From a virus: DNA of 26,824 nucleotides. Each line of letters opens with the position of its first letter. Position 1 is the stretch's first letter. A model generated the notes under the pieces. That model was not told the origin of the DNA, did not search any database, and saw only the letters and a list, made by a program, of their open reading frames with translations. Position numbers and translations under genes: made by a program. Below, piece by piece: positions 449 through 26,792 of this stretch. Where the stretch lies: IMG/VR virus record IMGVR_UViG_3300006802_000452, positions 1 to 26,824 of that record. One strand, 5' to 3'.

Positions 449-1294
449 TTAAACACCTCCTAAAAAGCCCCTAGTGACAGTTAGATCACCCTTATCTGTA
501 GCATTTCCTGTGGTAGTGGTTGAGTCTATGTAATCAATTATATTTTTACCACTACCCCCACCAAAAAAGCCATAAGTAGCACCACTAACACCAGCCAACG
601 CCCACCTAGCAACGGTAAGATCGCCCTTGTCTGTGGCATTGCCCGACGTTGTTGTTATATTAATATAGTCTATTGTATTTAAAATACCTGTATCTACCCC
701 CCCACCAAAAAAGCCATAAGTAGCACCACTAACACCAGATAAAGAATACCTAGCAACGGTAAGGTCGCCTTTGTCTGTGGCATTGCCCGACGTTGTTGTT
801 ATATTAATATAGTCTATTACATTAGATTGAGTCCCTGTATCACCTCCTCCGTAATAACCATAAGTACTTCCCGAAGAATTGCCGGTAGATGACCTAGCAA
901 CGGTAAGGTCGCCTTTGTCTGTGGCATTGCCCGACGTTGTTGTTATATTAATATAGTCTATTACATTAGAGTAACTCCCAGCATACCCCCCACCAAAAAA
1001 GCCATAAGTAGCACCATTAGTCCCAGTCACGCCTTCTCTAGCAACGGTTAAATCTCCTTTGTCCGTAGCGTTGCCGGTACCGGTGGCTAAAGTTATATAA
1101 TCAATAATATTTTGGTTAGCCCCTGAAACAGTACCGCCTGCAAAGAAGCCATAAGTAGCCCCCCGTGTTCCACCGACAGCATTGCGCCCAACAGTTAGAT
1201 CGCCCTTGTCGGTCGCATTTCCTGTAGTAGTGGTCAAGTTTGTGTAATCAATAACATTTGAATCGGAAGACCCACCACCAAAGAAGCCATAAGG
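449..1294 (-). repeat. Tandem repeat array inside the fibre gene (about 144 bp units)
   Basis: Six in-frame units of roughly 140-147 bp encode the kelch-like blades. Two units are identical over 79 bases (748-826 and 892-970, offset 144). The unit around 604-675 differs from them at only a few positions over the same stretch. DNA-level identity, beyond what the protein requires, points to recent duplication or gene conversion and gives substrate for unit gain or loss. Confidence 0.85.
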
Positions 1295-1711
1295 GCCAGC
1301 AACAAATATACCCCATCCACTACCGCATTCACAACCTACCCAATACTCATTGTCAACACCAACTAATTCTATTTTGTCGGCAATAGTAGAGCTTTCTATT
1401 GAACCGGCTGCATCAGTTTCGCCCAATGAAGTTAATATTTTATCACCTGCACTAGCGGTTATTTTCACATTAAAAGGATCAAAGACAAAAAAAGTATGCC
1501 TTAATCCATCTTCACAAGTAGGCAAAGAAAATTCCACTTCTGCTACCGCCCCTTGATTAGTTAGCATCTTATTATAATCGGTCGTAGCAACAACTGTATA
1601 GGCTGTAGTTTTTGCGGACGTTGTCAATAGTGCGTCGTCTCTTAATGTATTGTAGTCGGACGCAAGTGCTGTATTGCCAGCCGATACATTTGTAGAAGTT
1701 CCAACCGTCAT
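449..1711 (-). CDS. Tail fibre or tail-tip protein with six kelch-like repeats
   Basis: This 420-residue protein has two parts. Residues 1-139 form a phage-type beta domain (LPTCEDGLRHTFFVFDPF followed by GDKILTSLG) of the kind often found at the base of fibre proteins. Residues 140-420 are six repeats of about 47 residues, each with a YGFFGGG core, then (N)VIDYI, then GNATDKGDLTVAR. The glycine triplet and regular spacing resemble kelch-type beta-propeller blades; six blades could close one propeller. Such NATDxGDLTVAR repeats are familiar from environmental phage structural proteins, and receptor or glycan binding is an inference from that. Only the few residues after GGG and after TVAR vary between units, the pattern expected of exposed loops. 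The start at 1711 has TTAATA 7 bases upstream. It lies last but one in the visible tail operon. Confidence 0.8.
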   Translation of the reverse strand: MTVGTSTNVSAGNTALASDYNTLRDDALLTTSAKTTAYTVVATTDYNKMLTNQGAVAEVEFSLPTCEDGLRHTFFVFDPFNVKITASAGDKILTSLGETDAAGSIESSTIADKIELVGVDNEYWVGCECGSGWGIFVAGPYGFFGGGSSDSNVIDYTNLTTTTGNATDKGDLTVGRNAVGGTRGATYGFFAGGTVSGANQNIIDYITLATGTGNATDKGDLTVAREGVTGTNGATYGFFGGGYAGSYSNVIDYINITTTSGNATDKGDLTVARSSTGNSSGSTYGYYGGGDTGTQSNVIDYINITTTSGNATDKGDLTVARYSLSGVSGATYGFFGGGVDTGILNTIDYINITTTSGNATDKGDLTVARWALAGVSGATYGFFGGGSGKNIIDYIDSTTTTGNATDKGDLTVTRGFLGGV

Positions 1712-6658: not shown

Positions 6659-7128
6659 GCTCTCTTGGCTATTTTCAGTCAATTCAGTTTTTAAAATTTC
6701 CATGAATAGAATCATTTTTTTGCATTCTCTTTGTTTCCAGTCAATGCCAAATTTTTCCGACATCTTATAATCTAAATATGCACTTAAGTCAGCTCTTTTA
6801 CCTTTGGCTGCTCTAATTCCATTTTTAATTTTTTTTTATCTTCCTCACTCAAATTAAGACTTTCGGCGTAACAATTCATTATATCAGAAATTTGTCGCAT
6901 GCTTAATTTTTTTAATATTTCTTTTGTAATCATTACTTCTTCTCCATCACTAATTAATTTATGAATTAAAATTAATAATATTTCTAATTCGTTTTCTTTA
7001 TTATTAGCTAAATCTTTTGAAAGATTGATAATTTTTTCATTATCTTCCCAAGACAGACTAGTAAAAACTAATATTTTATCATTTTCTCCATAAGTTAGCT
7101 CTTTTGTATCTTGATTAAATAAGGCCAT
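6656..7128 (-). CDS. Tail assembly chaperone, -1 frameshift (GT-like) form
   Basis: At 6837-6829 (minus strand) the codons AAA AAA AAA follow GAT and precede TTA. A -1 slip there leaves the zero frame, which would stop at 6784, and continues ATT AAA AAT GGA through 57 more codons to a TAA at 6658-6656. The new C-terminus begins IKNGIRAAKGKRADLSAYL and includes DYKMSEKFGIDWKQRECKK, giving a 157-residue product. The extension ends 17 bases before the tape measure. This matches the G/GT organisation conserved in long-tailed phages, where the extended form recruits tail tube subunits to the tape measure. The frame and run of A's are seen directly; that slipping occurs is inference. No strong downstream stem-loop is obvious, only a 4-bp CAGC/GCTG pairing. 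Confidence 0.82.
6784..7128 (-). CDS. Tail assembly chaperone, short (G-like) form
   Basis: The 114-residue product lies between tail tube and tape measure, the standard place for the lambda gpG-type chaperone that coats the tape measure during tail assembly. It is a small alpha-helical acidic protein (LSWEDNEKIINLSKDL; KEILKKLSMRQISDIMN). TTAATA lies 7 bases before the ATG. The last codons include GAT followed by nine A's, a slippery run; see the frameshift entry. The call rests on position, size and the frameshift rather than on sequence similarity. In other phages tail chaperones diverge quickly, so weak similarity is expected. Confidence 0.8.
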   Translation of the reverse strand: MALFNQDTKELTYGENDKILVFTSLSWEDNEKIINLSKDLANNKENELEILLILIHKLISDGEEVMITKEILKKLSMRQISDIMNCYAESLNLSEEDKKKLKMELEQPKVKELT

Positions 7129-7260: not shown

Positions 7261-7581
7261 ATGAATAAAATTTTATTAATTCTGTCTACAACGCTATTAA
7301 TAATATTTGCTTTTACTGCCTGCGGCTCTAAGCAAGAGATTGTAAAAGAACCCATTAAACAGCCCGCAATATTACAGGGAGGGGAAGAGGAAAAGGCTGA
7401 ATCGCTAGCGAAAGATTATTTATTACAAAAAAATCCCGAAATATCTCTAAATGAAAGAGCTGACAGGATTATGTACGATGGATATAGTTATAACGTAGAA
7501 ATTAAAGACAAAAAGGGAAATGGCTACTTTTGTATAGTAGACACCTCCCTTAGAGAAGAAATTTTATGTACTAATAACTAA
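7261..7581 (+). CDS. Putative lipoprotein moron, opposite strand to the tail genes
   Basis: The 106-residue product has a typical lipoprotein signal: MNK, a hydrophobic run from residue 4 to 18, then FTAC-GS with the lipid-modified Cys at 21. The mature part is small and charged (EEEKAESLAKDYLLQKNPEI, then beta-strand-like YSYNVEIKDKKGNGYFCIVD) with two further Cys in the last 20 residues that could form a disulfide. It sits between tail tube and chaperone, has its own consensus promoter, and overlaps the tail tube gene tail-to-tail by 11 bases. That is the pattern of a moron expressed from a prophage. Phage-encoded lipoproteins often block superinfection at the cell surface, which is a guess here. 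TTAACC lies 8 bases before the ATG and there is no Shine-Dalgarno. I see no terminator after it. Confidence 0.8.
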   Translation: MNKILLILSTTLLIIFAFTACGSKQEIVKEPIKQPAILQGGEEEKAESLAKDYLLQKNPEISLNERADRIMYDGYSYNVEIKDKKGNGYFCIVDTSLREEILCTNN

Positions 7582-19539: not shown

Positions 19540-21774
19540 TTATTCCATATTGTCAAACTCGTCCTCTAATTCTCTTCGTTGTTGTTCAGCAATTGCCATT
19601 TGCATTTCTAGCTCTTCTTGGCGTATTGGCAAATAATATTCTTGTGAGCCATGATGAAGACCAAGCCCACCGACTACGTTAACGTTGTCCTTTGTGCCAT
19701 TCTGTTTATTCCAATCGTGGAACGTTTTAATTGAATAAAGCATTAAAGCTGTTTGGCCGTATTGTGTTAATTGTTTTTTAGTATCATCAGCAACTAAAAG
19801 TTTATAATGCTGTGTCCCCATTTTTTCAGCCTGAATATTTACAGTTCTTCTGAATAGTCCTCTAGGGTGAGATAGCGCAGAAAGTTTGTAAATGTTTCTA
19901 TTAAATTTTATTTCGCTCACTTGATCAGTTGCGAGCAAGTAGGGGGCGGACTGTGTAAAATTATCATTTATTTTCTCGGCAATCCTACGGCCCTCATTAA
20001 ATACAACGCCTTGTAGATTTGATTTATAGCCAAATATAAAACTTTTAAAATCTGACTCTTCTACTATTATTTCAGTAGCAAACATTACGTTTTTATCAAT
20101 CTCTTTTATAGCACTAATAGCATTCTTCATACTAGTTTTATGAAGACCGTTCATTACTTTATTACTAAAAAGCCTATCTTCAAACTTTGACATTAAATCT
20201 TTAACGCCCTTTGTTGTTTCGTTTTTTAAACTCAAATTGCCGGTCTTTTTTATTACTTCAATCCCTCCCACTACTTCTGTTTTTATTTTTTGATATTGTG
20301 ATCGCAAGTAAGTTTTTATTTTTTCTTCTGTTTCCTCTATTAAAGGAATAAAAGTTTTTTTAAATTCTGTTTGTAAAAACTTCTCTTGTTCATTAATTAC
20401 CTTTTGAAAAATCTTTTCTTTTTTTGACTTCTCGGCTAACGAGATTTTTTTTTTAGATTTATTAGAAAAAGTTTGATCGTCTTTTTTGTCATCCTTTTTA
20501 TCTTCTATTTTAGTTTCTTTTTGTGGTAATATTTCTGACTCATCTTTTTGCGGAATATCTAAAGTATCTCGAACAAAGTCATTTACATTCTTTTCGTTAG
20601 GATCAACCAAGCCAGTTTGAACCATTACGTTCATTGTGTTTGCAAACTTCTCTATATCAACCTTACTGATATCAGTAAATGAATGATAAGGGTAATCCTT
20701 AGGATCAACATTCGAGAAATTAATATCAATTAAATTTTTAATTTCTTTGTTTAACTCATCACTAAAAACACTACCTATATGCTTGATAGTATTAGAGAAA
20801 AAATCCATTTCGCTTTGACTTTTAGCCATACTACCAACGCTATTGTCGCCACTTACTAAAAACATCGCCATAAATGCCCGGGCAATGTCACGATTTAAAA
20901 CGTTTAAATAGTCAATCATTTCTTTGACTAGATCAGCCCCAGAATTACCGCCGAACATTTCGAGAGTATCCTCAATATTAGGCTTAACAATATAAGATTT
21001 TTCATTAGCTCTTAATTGTTGGAGCATTTGAGTTATTAATGTGATGTCGGCTGCATTTGCTTGCTTGATTCCATAAACAGGAACACCAACACCGTATCTT
21101 TCACAAGCAACCGCTATGATCTTCATCATCTTTTGCTTGTAAAGCCAAGCTTGACGAACAGGCCGAAGAATAGATCGACCGTCGTAATTATCTCCCTCTT
21201 TCTGAAAAACAAAATATAATAATTTTTCAAATGGTATCGATGGATTGCTTCCGCCCTCTCCTAATTCATCTCCTGATAATTGTTGTTCAACAAAAGGGCG
21301 GTCTTTAGTATGCCATTTATAATGAGCCGATGGAATCCTAGGGGCGAACTTATCCCAAACTATTTTCCCGTTATCAAGCTCTTTGTAAATCTTCTCAAAA
21401 TAATAAAATCCAAAAATAGGGAAGTTAAAAGCTTCCTCTTTAAATGAATTCCAGTTTTGATCTAATTGAGTAAATAGAGCGTCTTCTATAAATTCGTTAT
21501 ATTCTTCGTTCTCTCCGCTTATTGTATCTTTAGCAGCAAGTAAAGTTAACTTGAAGGCGTTAATGCCCGACATTATCATAGCATCACTACAACGCATTTT
21601 ATTATAGACTGTAATCCCATTTTGACCCTGCAAGTCTCCTAGATATTCTTCTGAAGATATGCCGCTCCAAATGGAAGTACCGCTAGCCCCTATCTCTCTC
21701 ATCATGTCTTTTCTGTTTTCTGCGTTCTTGTCACCAAACGAAAACGCATTTTTAATATTGTCTAATAATGCCAT
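19540..21774 (-). CDS. Portal protein (DUF935 / Mu gp29-like) with C-terminal extension
   Basis: The 744-residue protein has a Mu-type portal domain at about 30-410: NGITVYNKMRCSDAMIMSGI, NFPIFGFYYFEKIYKELDNG, the YDGRSILRPVRQAWLYKQKM strip, then LNVLNRDIARAFMAMFLVSG, which match DUF935 portals. Residues about 430-744 are an extra alpha-helical section (KTFIPLIEETEEKIKTYLRS onward, ending in ELEMQMAIAEQQRRELEDEF). This region sits where other Mu-like phages encode the separate gpF/MuF minor head protein, so a portal-MuF fusion is possible, but I do not see a convincing MuF motif. The start at 21774 falls inside an inverted repeat. A promoter-like pair lies in the gap upstream. Confidence 0.8.
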   Translation of the reverse strand: MALLDNIKNAFSFGDKNAENRKDMMREIGASGTSIWSGISSEEYLGDLQGQNGITVYNKMRCSDAMIMSGINAFKLTLLAAKDTISGENEEYNEFIEDALFTQLDQNWNSFKEEAFNFPIFGFYYFEKIYKELDNGKIVWDKFAPRIPSAHYKWHTKDRPFVEQQLSGDELGEGGSNPSIPFEKLLYFVFQKEGDNYDGRSILRPVRQAWLYKQKMMKIIAVACERYGVGVPVYGIKQANAADITLITQMLQQLRANEKSYIVKPNIEDTLEMFGGNSGADLVKEMIDYLNVLNRDIARAFMAMFLVSGDNSVGSMAKSQSEMDFFSNTIKHIGSVFSDELNKEIKNLIDINFSNVDPKDYPYHSFTDISKVDIEKFANTMNVMVQTGLVDPNEKNVNDFVRDTLDIPQKDESEILPQKETKIEDKKDDKKDDQTFSNKSKKKISLAEKSKKEKIFQKVINEQEKFLQTEFKKTFIPLIEETEEKIKTYLRSQYQKIKTEVVGGIEVIKKTGNLSLKNETTKGVKDLMSKFEDRLFSNKVMNGLHKTSMKNAISAIKEIDKNVMFATEIIVEESDFKSFIFGYKSNLQGVVFNEGRRIAEKINDNFTQSAPYLLATDQVSEIKFNRNIYKLSALSHPRGLFRRTVNIQAEKMGTQHYKLLVADDTKKQLTQYGQTALMLYSIKTFHDWNKQNGTKDNVNVVGGLGLHHGSQEYYLPIRQEELEMQMAIAEQQRRELEDEFDNME

Positions 21775-22119: not shown

Positions 22120-22281
22120 TTAAGAATTTTTAGGAATAACTACAGGTGAAGGCTCATTAACTGTACCGCAATAATTGCCTCTTAAAATATTTGTACCCCT
22201 AAGCCTCTCTTTTAACTTACTTTCAGCGTCTTTTAAATCTTTAGCTTCAATAGTAAGATCAATCAAAAATAAATGTTTCAT
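22120..22281 (-). CDS. 53-residue protein coupled to the ribbon-helix-helix gene
   Basis: An open frame of 53 codons, MKHLFLIDLTIEAKDLKDAE through ESKLKERLRGTNILRGNY and ending VVIPKNS. The start overlaps the preceding gene's stop as TAATG, the same junction used at 9118 and 10265. TTAACA precedes it by 8 bases. The pattern of a strand, a helix (EAKDLKDAESKLKERL) and a strand suggests a small compact fold. No family recognised. Confidence 0.65.
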   Translation of the reverse strand: MKHLFLIDLTIEAKDLKDAESKLKERLRGTNILRGNYCGTVNEPSPVVIPKNS

Positions 22282-22472
22282 TATAAATTTGTTAAATATT
22301 CCTTAACCTCTTTAGCTTTTTTGTAATCCATAAACTGCTCATATTCATAAGCGAAATAGATCGCCTGTTTTATTGTAGCACTTAACGACTTACAAGAATA
22401 GATAGCTTGTAACTCTTCTATTACCTTTCTTTCTCTCTCTGATATGTAAATAGGTAGTGAATTTGTTATTAT
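22281..22472 (-). CDS. Ribbon-helix-helix DNA-binding-like protein, non-ATG start
   Basis: The frame encodes NSLPIYISERERKVIEELQA and IYSCKSLSATIKQAIYFAYE, then EYEQFMDYKKAKEVKEYLTNL. A short strand (LPIYIS), a helix, a turn with S-L-S and a second helix match the Arc/MetJ-type ribbon-helix-helix family of small DNA-binding regulators. The stop overlaps the next ATG (TAATG). The only ATG in frame would leave 16 residues. No ATG, GTG or TTG lies before the domain. An ATA at 22472 has TTAATA exactly 8 bases upstream, so I chose it. The alternatives are a mutated start (pseudogene), a sequence error, or an ATT/other rare start slightly upstream. Confidence 0.55.
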   Translation of the reverse strand: MITNSLPIYISERERKVIEELQAIYSCKSLSATIKQAIYFAYEYEQFMDYKKAKEVKEYLTNL

Positions 22473-22542: not shown

Positions 22543-24075
22543 TTAAAAATCTTCATAATCTACAATCCCCATGCTTGACTCTTGAGATGTATTAATTTGC
22601 ATTGCTTTACAAGAACCAGAAGCATACTTGGCCGTGTAGTAAGCAATCATTAAAGCCTCGGCATGATCGGGTGAAGGTATGCCTTTCTTTTTCATTTTCT
22701 CTTTACTTACAATTATAAGCTTTCCTTGTCTTGTGATTTCGTACTTGATATTTAAAAGGTCAGCTTTGATATTATCTAGGTCGCTGGTCTCGATAGTGGA
22801 TTCGGATAAATCAATATTACCTTCTTTAAATTCACGAGCCAAAGCGAAGTGCATTTCAGCCTTAATATTATCAAAGTCTTGAGAATTAAAAGCAGAATTA
22901 GCAGCATTGAACGCAGCGCAAGGGTAATTGTCATGACGTAGATTATCAGTAACACCGCCACCGACACCAGTATCATCTACCCCGATAGTAGTACAATCGA
23001 AATCATTAAATAATTTTTTTGCTATGTTGGCCACTTGAACCGTGTCTTTTCCTTGTACCCATTCCATATGAATGAGCTTGTTGTTTTGGTAAACACAAAA
23101 TACCGATTTATCATCTCCGAATCTCGCAACGTCAATACCAAGAACACGACCAATATTATTATTAGGTAGTTCGTTGATCGTCAATTGTGCATTCTCTACA
23201 TCAGTAGCATTATAAACGGAGTCCTCAGCCTTCTCCGGGAACCTTCCAAGAACACGAGATTGAAATAATGGATTGTCATAACCCCAATGATAGAACCTGT
23301 CAACAATCCACTTTACTGTGGTAAGGCGAGGAAATGGGATTTCTTTGTTAGGGTCTTTCTCATAAGCTTCAACTAATTTAGTCACTCCTTCTTTAGTCGG
23401 TGGAAATTCGCCATACACTTTAACATTAGGGAGGTCCAGCGAGTTAATGCTCATTACTTTCCAACCCTTCGGCTTGTTTTTACAAACACGATAAAACTCC
23501 GTACCTACATGAGTAGGATTCCCAATCGCTAGTAGTTTACAGTTCTTAGATGTTAACACCCCATAGATAGAGTCCCAAATAGCTTGTTCAACTCCGCCGG
23601 CTTCGTCAATAACAACTAATAAATCTTCGGCGTGAAATCCTTGAATTGAAGTAGCTACTTCCGTGCCTGTATCTTTACGAGGTGAAAGCCCGATAGCTTT
23701 CCATTGACTATCTAGTTTTAGTTCAGTTTGCAAACAAGCACTTGGATAAATAGTGTCTAAATATAACCTTGATTTAGAATGCTTCGCGTTAATTTCAGCC
23801 CATAAAATATTACGGACTTGTTGGGCGGTGGTAGCCGTGGTTATAACGTAAGAGTTGCGATGAGTAAATAAAAACTCTAGCACTACATCAGCGGCTAGAT
23901 AAGTTTTCCCTACTCCATGACTAGACTGAACAGCTACATAATCAAAATCCCTTAGTGCTTGTTTTATTTCTAACTGTTTTCCCCAGCATTCAGATTCTAA
24001 AACAGTATCGCCAAAATAGTTAGCTTTAGTATGGCAATCATTAAAGAATTTTTTAGCTAGGTCAGTTTGATCCAT
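22543..24075 (-). CDS. terL: Terminase large subunit
   Basis: The 510-residue protein has the ATPase and nuclease halves of the packaging motor. Walker A is SSHGVGKT (51-58), Walker B LLVVIDEAGG (152-161, Asp157/Glu158), and the coupling motif is IGNPT (184-188). The RNase H-like nuclease has the first acidic motif GIDVARFGDD (Asp315), GVDDTG (Asp367/Asp368) and a final acidic residue in SPDHAEALMIAYY (Asp470). All expected catalytic positions are present and the length is normal. The gene overlaps the small subunit by 14 bases. Confidence 0.95.
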   Translation of the reverse strand: MDQTDLAKKFFNDCHTKANYFGDTVLESECWGKQLEIKQALRDFDYVAVQSSHGVGKTYLAADVVLEFLFTHRNSYVITTATTAQQVRNILWAEINAKHSKSRLYLDTIYPSACLQTELKLDSQWKAIGLSPRKDTGTEVATSIQGFHAEDLLVVIDEAGGVEQAIWDSIYGVLTSKNCKLLAIGNPTHVGTEFYRVCKNKPKGWKVMSINSLDLPNVKVYGEFPPTKEGVTKLVEAYEKDPNKEIPFPRLTTVKWIVDRFYHWGYDNPLFQSRVLGRFPEKAEDSVYNATDVENAQLTINELPNNNIGRVLGIDVARFGDDKSVFCVYQNNKLIHMEWVQGKDTVQVANIAKKLFNDFDCTTIGVDDTGVGGGVTDNLRHDNYPCAAFNAANSAFNSQDFDNIKAEMHFALAREFKEGNIDLSESTIETSDLDNIKADLLNIKYEITRQGKLIIVSKEKMKKKGIPSPDHAEALMIAYYTAKYASGSCKAMQINTSQESSMGIVDYEDF

Positions 24076-24469: not shown

Positions 24470-26019
24470 TAGTCATTATTAAGAAATATGTTATAGTCAA
24501 TTATTTCACCGTTACGTTTTAAAGTAATTTCTTTGTCTTCTTTTAACATGTAATTAATCCATCTTTTGATTATTATATCGCAATACTTTTCGTCTAACTC
24601 TTGACCATAGCATATACGATTAGTTTGTTCACATGCCATTAGAGTAGAACCAGAACCAAGAAAAGCGTCTAACACAATTCCACCTTTGGGGCAACTGCTC
24701 TTGATTGCTCTTGCACATAAAACTAATGGCTTAGGGGTGGCGTGTCCTCCTGCACTCAACCTTTCACTATTATTAGTTCTTTCAAAATGCCACACATTAT
24801 TCATATTGTCGTGAACATTATCAAAATATGCTCTAGTAGCATAAAATTCTTTTTTTAATTCTTCGTATTCTTTTTTTAATTCTTCGTATTCTTTTTGAAA
24901 GCTACCGTATTCTTTTTGAAAGCTACCGTATTCTTTTTGAAGCTTCGTATAATGCTCCTCGGTAATAAATGCCCACTGGGATTTTGTGAACCAGTGTGAG
25001 TACATATCAACCCCACATATTCTTTTAACATCTTTCGCTTTTAATCCTACGTCATCAGCCATCTTTTTTAACGCAAGCCGAATAGATTCCCACCCCTCAT
25101 AATAGTTATCAGAATTATTATTAAATCCCTGAACTCCACACATTACAAACAGGCACTTTTCATCAGCAAAAGGGTAACTTCTCATACTAACATCATTTTG
25201 ACCTTGACCACACCCCTTATCCCAAGTTATTAAATTTCTAAAGGATACTTTTTGGGCCTCAATCATTGGTCTCAAAATATCGCTAAAAATTTCCATTAGA
25301 GGAACGTCCCCCCCCCAACAATAGAAACTAGCGTTGTCTTTTAAGACGGTAAATTGCAGGGGTACCCAATCTTTGTTAAACTCCAGTATATTACTAAAAT
25401 TTAGATTGTCATTTAGAACCTTTTCGCCAGAAGCACTTTTATATGATACCCCATAAGGCGGATCGTTAAGCCCAAGATCAGCTTTTTCCCCATCCATTAA
25501 CTTCTCTACTGCCTTCACGTCTGTACTATCAGCACAATGTACACGGTGTCCGTTTAACTCGTATAAATCACCTAATATTGTAATAGCTTGAGTTGGTATT
25601 GCTGGGGCTTCGTCCTCTTCAACGTCTGGCTCTATTTCCTCAATATGTATCTCCAACTCGTCTAGTCTTAAATCTAAATAATCTTCTTCGTCTTTTAGCT
25701 CAATTAATATATCATTTAGCTTTACGCCTTCATATTTTCCGCTTATAGCCTGCGAGTTCATTATCACATTGAGTTTTTTCTCTTGCTTTTTGTTTAAATC
25801 TACTATATCACAATAAGCTTCTTCTATTCCTAAATCTTTCATAGCCTTTAATCTCTGATGTCCACTAATTAAAGTCATATCTTTATTTACTATTAAATTT
25901 TCACGTTGCCCAAATATCCTTAAACTTGCCTTTAATCCTTCAAGCTCTTCCTCCTCTATAATTCTAGGATTATAGTCGGCTTCTTTAATTTCTGATAATT
26001 TAATTTTTTTTAAATTCAC
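24469..26019 (-). CDS. ParB-domain DNA methyltransferase (beta class)
   Basis: The 516-residue product starts at GTG, supported by TTAATA 7 bases upstream and no suitable ATG. Residues 1-95 are a ParB/Srx-like domain with the key SGHQR motif (52-56). The methyltransferase follows with motif IV DPPYG (186-190), then the region between motifs that recognises DNA, and motif I DAFLGSGSTL (451-460). Motif IV before motif I with DPPY is the beta class that makes N6-methyladenine or N4-methylcytosine. Residues about 361-392 are a heptad coiled coil coded by tandem 21-bp repeats. Genes like this next to terminases protect phage DNA from host restriction or tag it. No restriction enzyme is visible, so it is an orphan. 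Confidence 0.88.
   Translation of the reverse strand: MNLKKIKLSEIKEADYNPRIIEEEELEGLKASLRIFGQRENLIVNKDMTLISGHQRLKAMKDLGIEEAYCDIVDLNKKQEKKLNVIMNSQAISGKYEGVKLNDILIELKDEEDYLDLRLDELEIHIEEIEPDVEEDEAPAIPTQAITILGDLYELNGHRVHCADSTDVKAVEKLMDGEKADLGLNDPPYGVSYKSASGEKVLNDNLNFSNILEFNKDWVPLQFTVLKDNASFYCWGGDVPLMEIFSDILRPMIEAQKVSFRNLITWDKGCGQGQNDVSMRSYPFADEKCLFVMCGVQGFNNNSDNYYEGWESIRLALKKMADDVGLKAKDVKRICGVDMYSHWFTKSQWAFITEEHYTKLQKEYGSFQKEYGSFQKEYEELKKEYEELKKEFYATRAYFDNVHDNMNNVWHFERTNNSERLSAGGHATPKPLVLCARAIKSSCPKGGIVLDAFLGSGSTLMACEQTNRICYGQELDEKYCDIIIKRWINYMLKEDKEITLKRNGEIIDYNIFLNND
24847..24949 (-). repeat. Five 21-bp tandem units in the methyltransferase gene
   Basis: Two copies of one 21-base unit (24847-24867, 24868-24888) are followed by two copies of a related one (24889-24909, 24910-24930) and a shortened fifth (24931-24949). 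Each unit encodes seven residues: QKEYGSF or KKEYEEL heptads. Unit number can change without breaking the frame. Units also contain runs of five or seven T's. Confidence 0.85.
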
Positions 26020-26672: not shown

Positions 26673-26792
26673 TTATAGTTTAATCCCTATTATGTCAAAA
26701 ATATTATTTACCTCATTATCTAGTGGCGTTTCACACTTAGGACAAAACTTTTGAGGGTTGGTTATGTTTTCTTTGCAATTAGGGCAGATCAT
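26673..26792 (-). CDS. 39-residue zinc-ribbon protein
   Basis: The frame encodes MICPNCKENITNPQKFCPKC and ETPLDNEVNNIFDIIGIKL. Cys3, Cys6, Cys17 and Cys20 are an ideal CxxC...CxxC zinc ribbon, as in bacterial zinc-ribbon domains. The ATG at 26792 has TTAACA 8 bases upstream. An ATG at 26816 is also in frame and would add eight residues (MVVINKLK). I prefer the shorter form. Small zinc ribbons in phages may bind DNA, RNA or a host polymerase part; none is shown here. Confidence 0.6.
   Translation of the reverse strand: MICPNCKENITNPQKFCPKCETPLDNEVNNIFDIIGIKL

Follow-up and report, generated by a model that had tools for sequence, protein, structure and literature searches.

A small gene in the packaging cluster of a virus without Shine-Dalgarno signals probably starts at AUA behind a TTAAY motif

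The window analyzed here (the whole stretch of 26,824 nt, positions 1 to 26,824 of the viral record IMGVR_UViG_3300006802_000452) probably contains a real small gene of the packaging-gene cluster whose translation most likely starts, weakly, at the codon AUA (22472–22470, minus strand). The gene (IITNSLPIYISERERKVIEELQAIYSCKSLSATIKQAIYFAYEYEQFMDYKKAKEVKEYLTNL; 22472–22284, minus strand, 63 codons from ATA; stop codon TAA at 22283–22281) is indicated by its open frame, its codon usage, and a similarity to a CopG-family protein of Nostoc, and encodes a putative ribbon-helix-helix (RHH) regulator. It lies downstream of the gene encoding the terminase large subunit (TerL; 22543–24075, minus strand; PHROG 2, E = 1.3e-36) and upstream of that encoding the portal protein (19540–21774, minus strand; Pfam Portal_Mu, 1.5e-35; PHROG 113). 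On balance, we favor the reading that AUA is used via TTAATA (22486–22481, minus strand), a recruitment motif of the non-Shine-Dalgarno type TTAAY, and that weak initiation keeps a probable RHH protein scarce.

The frame is stop-free across the codons from 22505 to 22284 (74 codons), is preceded immediately 5' of 22505 by the in-frame stops TGA and TAA, and has codon 48 of 63 (the ATG of ...FMDYKK...) as its first ATG, GTG, or TTG. Its stop overlaps, as TAATG, the ATG (22281–22279) of the next gene (22120–22281, minus strand; 53 aa, function not assigned), which has its own TTAACA at −14. TTAATA starts 14 nt 5' of the AUA, with 8 bases between the end of the motif and the ATA. The original prediction had described the same frame, its missing common start codon, its TAATG coupling, and its spacing to TTAATA; a re-reading of the minus strand found coordinates and description to be exact.

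An open frame of 74 codons in this gap occurred in 0.3% of order-1 simulations (P = 0.003), and the virus genome is otherwise densely packed. The codon log-odds of the small frame are +0.107 per codon, compared with a median of −0.081 in off-frame windows of equal length that lack a stop, among which only 0.27% score higher. The corresponding value for windows from real genes is +0.25, and 11% of them score below the small frame. Because the weak AUA sits exactly where the recruitment signal of this virus places a start, the gene is probably real and its product probably made at a low level.

Genes of this virus start in an unusual manner. A Shine-Dalgarno core precedes none of the 29 starts in the window, whereas a TTAA beginning between −17 and −11 precedes 18 of them, compared with 5.8% of the other ATGs on the same strand. 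The motif has the form TTAAY and lies about 12–16 nt before the starts, with its first T mostly at −12 to −14; in several genes, the TAA within the motif is the stop codon of the preceding gene. Genes on the opposite strand (7261 and 26523) and an unlisted small gene (9249) obey the same rule. TTAAY, with nearly no Shine-Dalgarno sequences, is also present in related uncultivated phage contigs (L101, L094, L096, and L098; full records L123–L131), and ATG accounts for about 90% of the called starts in these phages. By contrast, a methanogen-associated virus (L005; TerL identity 34%) shows G-rich stretches upstream of many of its starts but no TTAAY; the motif is therefore not a general trait of this terminase lineage.

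The occurrence of TTAAY in the window and in kin phages suggests that the host uses a start signal other than Shine-Dalgarno. A literature search gave no paper directly on TTAA start motifs. The closest parallel is found in a genome of the Roizmanbacteria (Candidate Phyla Radiation), in which 353 of 946 ORFs were reported to have TAA as their ribosome-binding site (PMC6509639). As in this virus, the starts are preceded by TAA and not by a G-rich motif, but the Roizmanbacteria sites are gene-finder output from a bacterium. By this analogy, the host possibly belongs to Patescibacteria/Candidate Phyla Radiation; two scans of genome contigs with TerL and portal alignments found neither a prophage nor a host.

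Several other features of the window deserve mention. A gene of 43 aa (MDYEIKKTLDDNGNVVKAEIVYKEPKEAPKLPKKKSKLSSNDL; 9249–9119, minus strand), located in a gap of the longer ORF lists, starts with ATG and has TTAATA at −13. The start of a small zinc-ribbon-like protein on the minus strand is probably the ATG at 26792 (MICPNCKENITNPQKFCPKCET...), with TTAACA at −14, and not the listed 26816. Among the tail genes, a lipoprotein-like gene (7261–7581, plus strand) encodes a signal peptide with LLIIFAFTACGSK and has TTAACC at −14. On the minus strand upstream of the tape measure gene, a frame of 114 aa (6784–7128) and a −1 frame (6835–6659, about 59 codons) overlap at GATAAAAAAAAATTAAAAATGG, which is a probable tail-assembly-chaperone frameshift. 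A tail-fibre-like protein (449–1711, minus strand) has a repetitive build, with YGFFGGG...NVIDYINITTTSGNATDKGDLTVAR as the repeating unit.

The position of the start was evaluated with a model of motif and spacing trained exclusively on other genes. ATA 22472 was the top-scoring in-frame codon, with 4.37 bits after training on 29 starts and 4.99 bits after training on 33. The latter score was equaled or exceeded by 39% of true starts, by none of 482 non-start ATGs, and by 0.67% of 742 ATAs, and an equal site at any in-frame ATA, ATT, ATC, or CTG was rare in simulated leaders of the same composition (P = 0.025). Seven related phage genomes were also scanned for near-cognate codons that follow a start-grade motif and open a free frame of 45 or more codons; ATA 22472 was the sole candidate. 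Motif score, simulation, and seven-genome scan together support the start position well; use of AUA by the ribosome is inferred. The N-terminus read from AUA is MITNSLPIYIS, with the predicted strand beginning five residues in; predicted folding of the mRNA near the AUA is unremarkable (RNA fold z = −0.44).

In Escherichia coli, infC starts at AUU, which is part of a feedback through IF3. Another E. coli gene that starts at AUU is pcnB, as cited in PMC13009471. These genes resemble the small gene in having a near-cognate start with a third-position mismatch that limits the amount of protein; they differ in using AUU instead of AUA and in belonging to a Shine-Dalgarno host, and the small viral gene does not encode IF3. 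Closer parallels are infC, ccpN, and citZ of Staphylococcus aureus, which begin at AUA at sites found by ribosome profiling (PMC13009471). In that study, reporters for ccpN, citZ, and cvfC1 (which starts at AUU) gave approximately 10% of the AUG output from the non-canonical starts, and in rich medium ccpN reached up to 30%; extended Shine-Dalgarno motifs were reported for infC and ccpN (PMC13009471). The likeness consists in an AUA behind a strong recruitment signal, in the nature of ccpN as a transcriptional repressor, and in the low yield, which is presumed for the viral gene. However, infC and ccpN are chromosomal genes of conserved function that have been profiled, whereas the small gene is viral, is preceded by TTAAY, and is known from sequence alone.

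The small gene is probably a further example of a known but rare type of weak start, here in the absence of Shine-Dalgarno signals; no measurement of an AUA start under these conditions was found in the literature. The original prediction left two options, a rare AUA start that limits the expression of a regulator or a mutated start. The start-site part of the first option is supported, as a strong recruitment signal stands at the preferred spacing before the near-cognate codon, in the form of TTAAY and not of Shine-Dalgarno; a limiting effect on expression would fit the AUA starts measured in S. aureus (PMC13009471).

The identity of the protein is less certain. The original prediction of a clear domain pattern was overstated: searches of Pfam and NCBIfam profiles gave no match at E values up to 10, a sequence search of the PDB gave none, and PHROG 9850, which matches the protein with E = 0.024, has no assigned function. 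What stands is an alignment with a plasmid-encoded CopG-family protein of Nostoc (WP_179075796.1), the best match among plasmids (47% identity over 34 aa, database E = 4), which spans the strand, the helix, and the S-L-S turn (SLPVYLDEFERK...SLSTTIKRLI versus SLPIYISERERK...SLSATIKQAI) and was not equaled by any of 5000 shuffles. The viral protein differs from this relative by a one-residue insertion in the turn and a C-terminal extension of about 20 residues with a third predicted helix, and the Nostoc gene has an ordinary ATG start. The Nostoc protein itself gives only weak matches to RHH profiles, which are therefore insensitive in this case. An AF2 single-sequence monomer model (mean pLDDT 71) has helices at residues 12–25, 30–44, and 50–62, and residues before 12 are not called strand. 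The first two helices after a non-helical N-terminus would fit the order expected for an RHH fold, with the third helix in addition. Fold searches with the model returned unspecific helical matches and no RHH protein, a result that leaves the family admissible. An assignment to the ribbon-helix-helix (MetJ/Arc/CopG) type is plausible but unproven.

The leader of the gene contains several elements of potential regulatory significance. An inverted repeat, GCTATTATA-N11-TATAATAGC (22502–22474, minus strand; P = 0.053 versus order-1 simulations), holds the 12-bp palindrome CTATTATAATAG and ends one base before the AUA; it is a possible operator of the small protein or a weak hairpin. An upstream ORF of nine codons in another frame (ATGATAAGGTGCTATTATAATAGTCGTTAA; 22512–22483, minus strand) has its TAA within the TTAA motif, and ribosomes that terminate there could re-initiate at the AUA; the motif before its ATG is weak (1.58 bits). 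Three TATAAT hexamers occur within 90 nt (P = 0.019), but they lack a good −35 partner, and the number of sites in a promoter scan was no higher than in shuffles. A frameshift from the upstream ORF into the small frame was also considered and was dropped because the sequence contains no slippery heptamer.

According to the favored reading, host ribosomes, which would not use Shine-Dalgarno pairing on the genes of this virus, would be recruited by TTAATA at −14. The initiator tRNA would pair imperfectly with AUA, and initiation would therefore be weak. The output would plausibly be about one-tenth of that of AUG, so that the small protein stays scarce. The product would probably be a CopG-like RHH dimer that binds DNA, and the palindrome just upstream of the start may be its own operator, which would allow autoregulation. 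Against this reading count a codon usage in the lower 11% of real-gene windows, the lack of a family-model or fold match for the domain, the absence of the extended Shine-Dalgarno motif that stands behind known AUA genes, and the lack of a second AUA user among the seven TTAAY phages. A more specific version is tentative: AUA may keep a regulator deliberately scarce in a TTAAY host, with possible binding to the palindrome and re-initiation via the nine-codon leader.

Relatives of the small protein are almost absent from the material that was searched. Among viral contigs, searches with the sequence and with its Nostoc CopG alignment recovered only the gene of the near-identical contig IMGVR_UViG_3300025889_002240, and no divergent homolog was found among phages, plasmids, and eight records of TTAAY phages and their kin. 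Likewise, the 53-aa gene has no relatives beyond the near-identical contig. This contig, a separate assembly possibly from a related sample and hence not assuredly independent, is 99.95% identical to the window over 11.7 kb, with six SNPs, four of which are synonymous. None of the SNPs falls into the small-gene region, which has the same ATA and an intact frame. Five of the six SNPs are located within 93 bp (25861–25953 of the window, in the comparison with L003/L004) in a ParB/methyltransferase-like gene; this cluster may mark a recombination tract. The nearest virus by TerL (59%; L007/L089) has different small genes between TerL and portal and is therefore uninformative regarding the start codon, and relatives of the portal protein lack a comparable gene at that position. 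In L007, a consensus-like sigma-70 promoter (TTGACA-17-TATAAT) is present at about 2370–2430, right after TerL, and leads to TTAACAA ATG and an ORF of 26 codons.

The main rival is a recent loss of an ATG at 22472 by a G-to-A mutation, which would leave a poorly expressed or dead gene whose frame has not yet decayed. It fits the sequence, although we consider it rather unlikely. With ATG, this position would be unremarkable as a start, given its perfect TTAAY signal. About 90% of the starts called in these phages are ATG, and no other AUA start was found among them. A late-gene operon would stand the loss of an accessory gene; in the nearest relative, different small genes occupy this place. 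However, both known haplotypes, six SNPs apart, carry ATA and an intact frame. Moreover, initiation at AUA is still measurable in S. aureus (PMC13009471), so a change from ATG to AUA would not amount to a complete loss.

It is less likely still that the frame is entered by another route, be it re-initiation after the nine-codon ORF (22512–22483), initiation at ATA 22469 or a different near-cognate codon, or frameshifting. The stop of the upstream ORF within TTAA resembles the arrangement of several genes of this virus, and ATA 22469 (2.1 bits) and CTA 22457 (3.8 bits) score above background. Nevertheless, the poor motif of the upstream ATG and the missing slippery heptamer speak against it, and CTA differs from AUG by two mismatches. 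Even less probable is an AT-rich regulatory stretch that is open by chance, for which the TATAAT hexamers, the inverted repeat, and the lack of a Pfam or NCBIfam match might be adduced. The open frame and its coding-like codon usage argue against such a stretch, as do the TATAAT hexamers without a good −35 partner and a CopG-like sequence in register with the frame; moreover, a gap of 190 nt would remain, which is unusually long for this virus. A base-calling or assembly error at 22472–22470 is very improbable because, although both sources are metagenome assemblies, the second contig shows the same bases.

Since ATG, GTG, and TTG are usually the only start codons that gene finders allow, genes of the AUA type remain unannotated. 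If the favored reading is true, AUA would function as a start without Shine-Dalgarno pairing, and the choice of the start codon would tune viral genes even in such a setting. This would bear on the question of how the ribosomes of poorly known bacteria find their starts.
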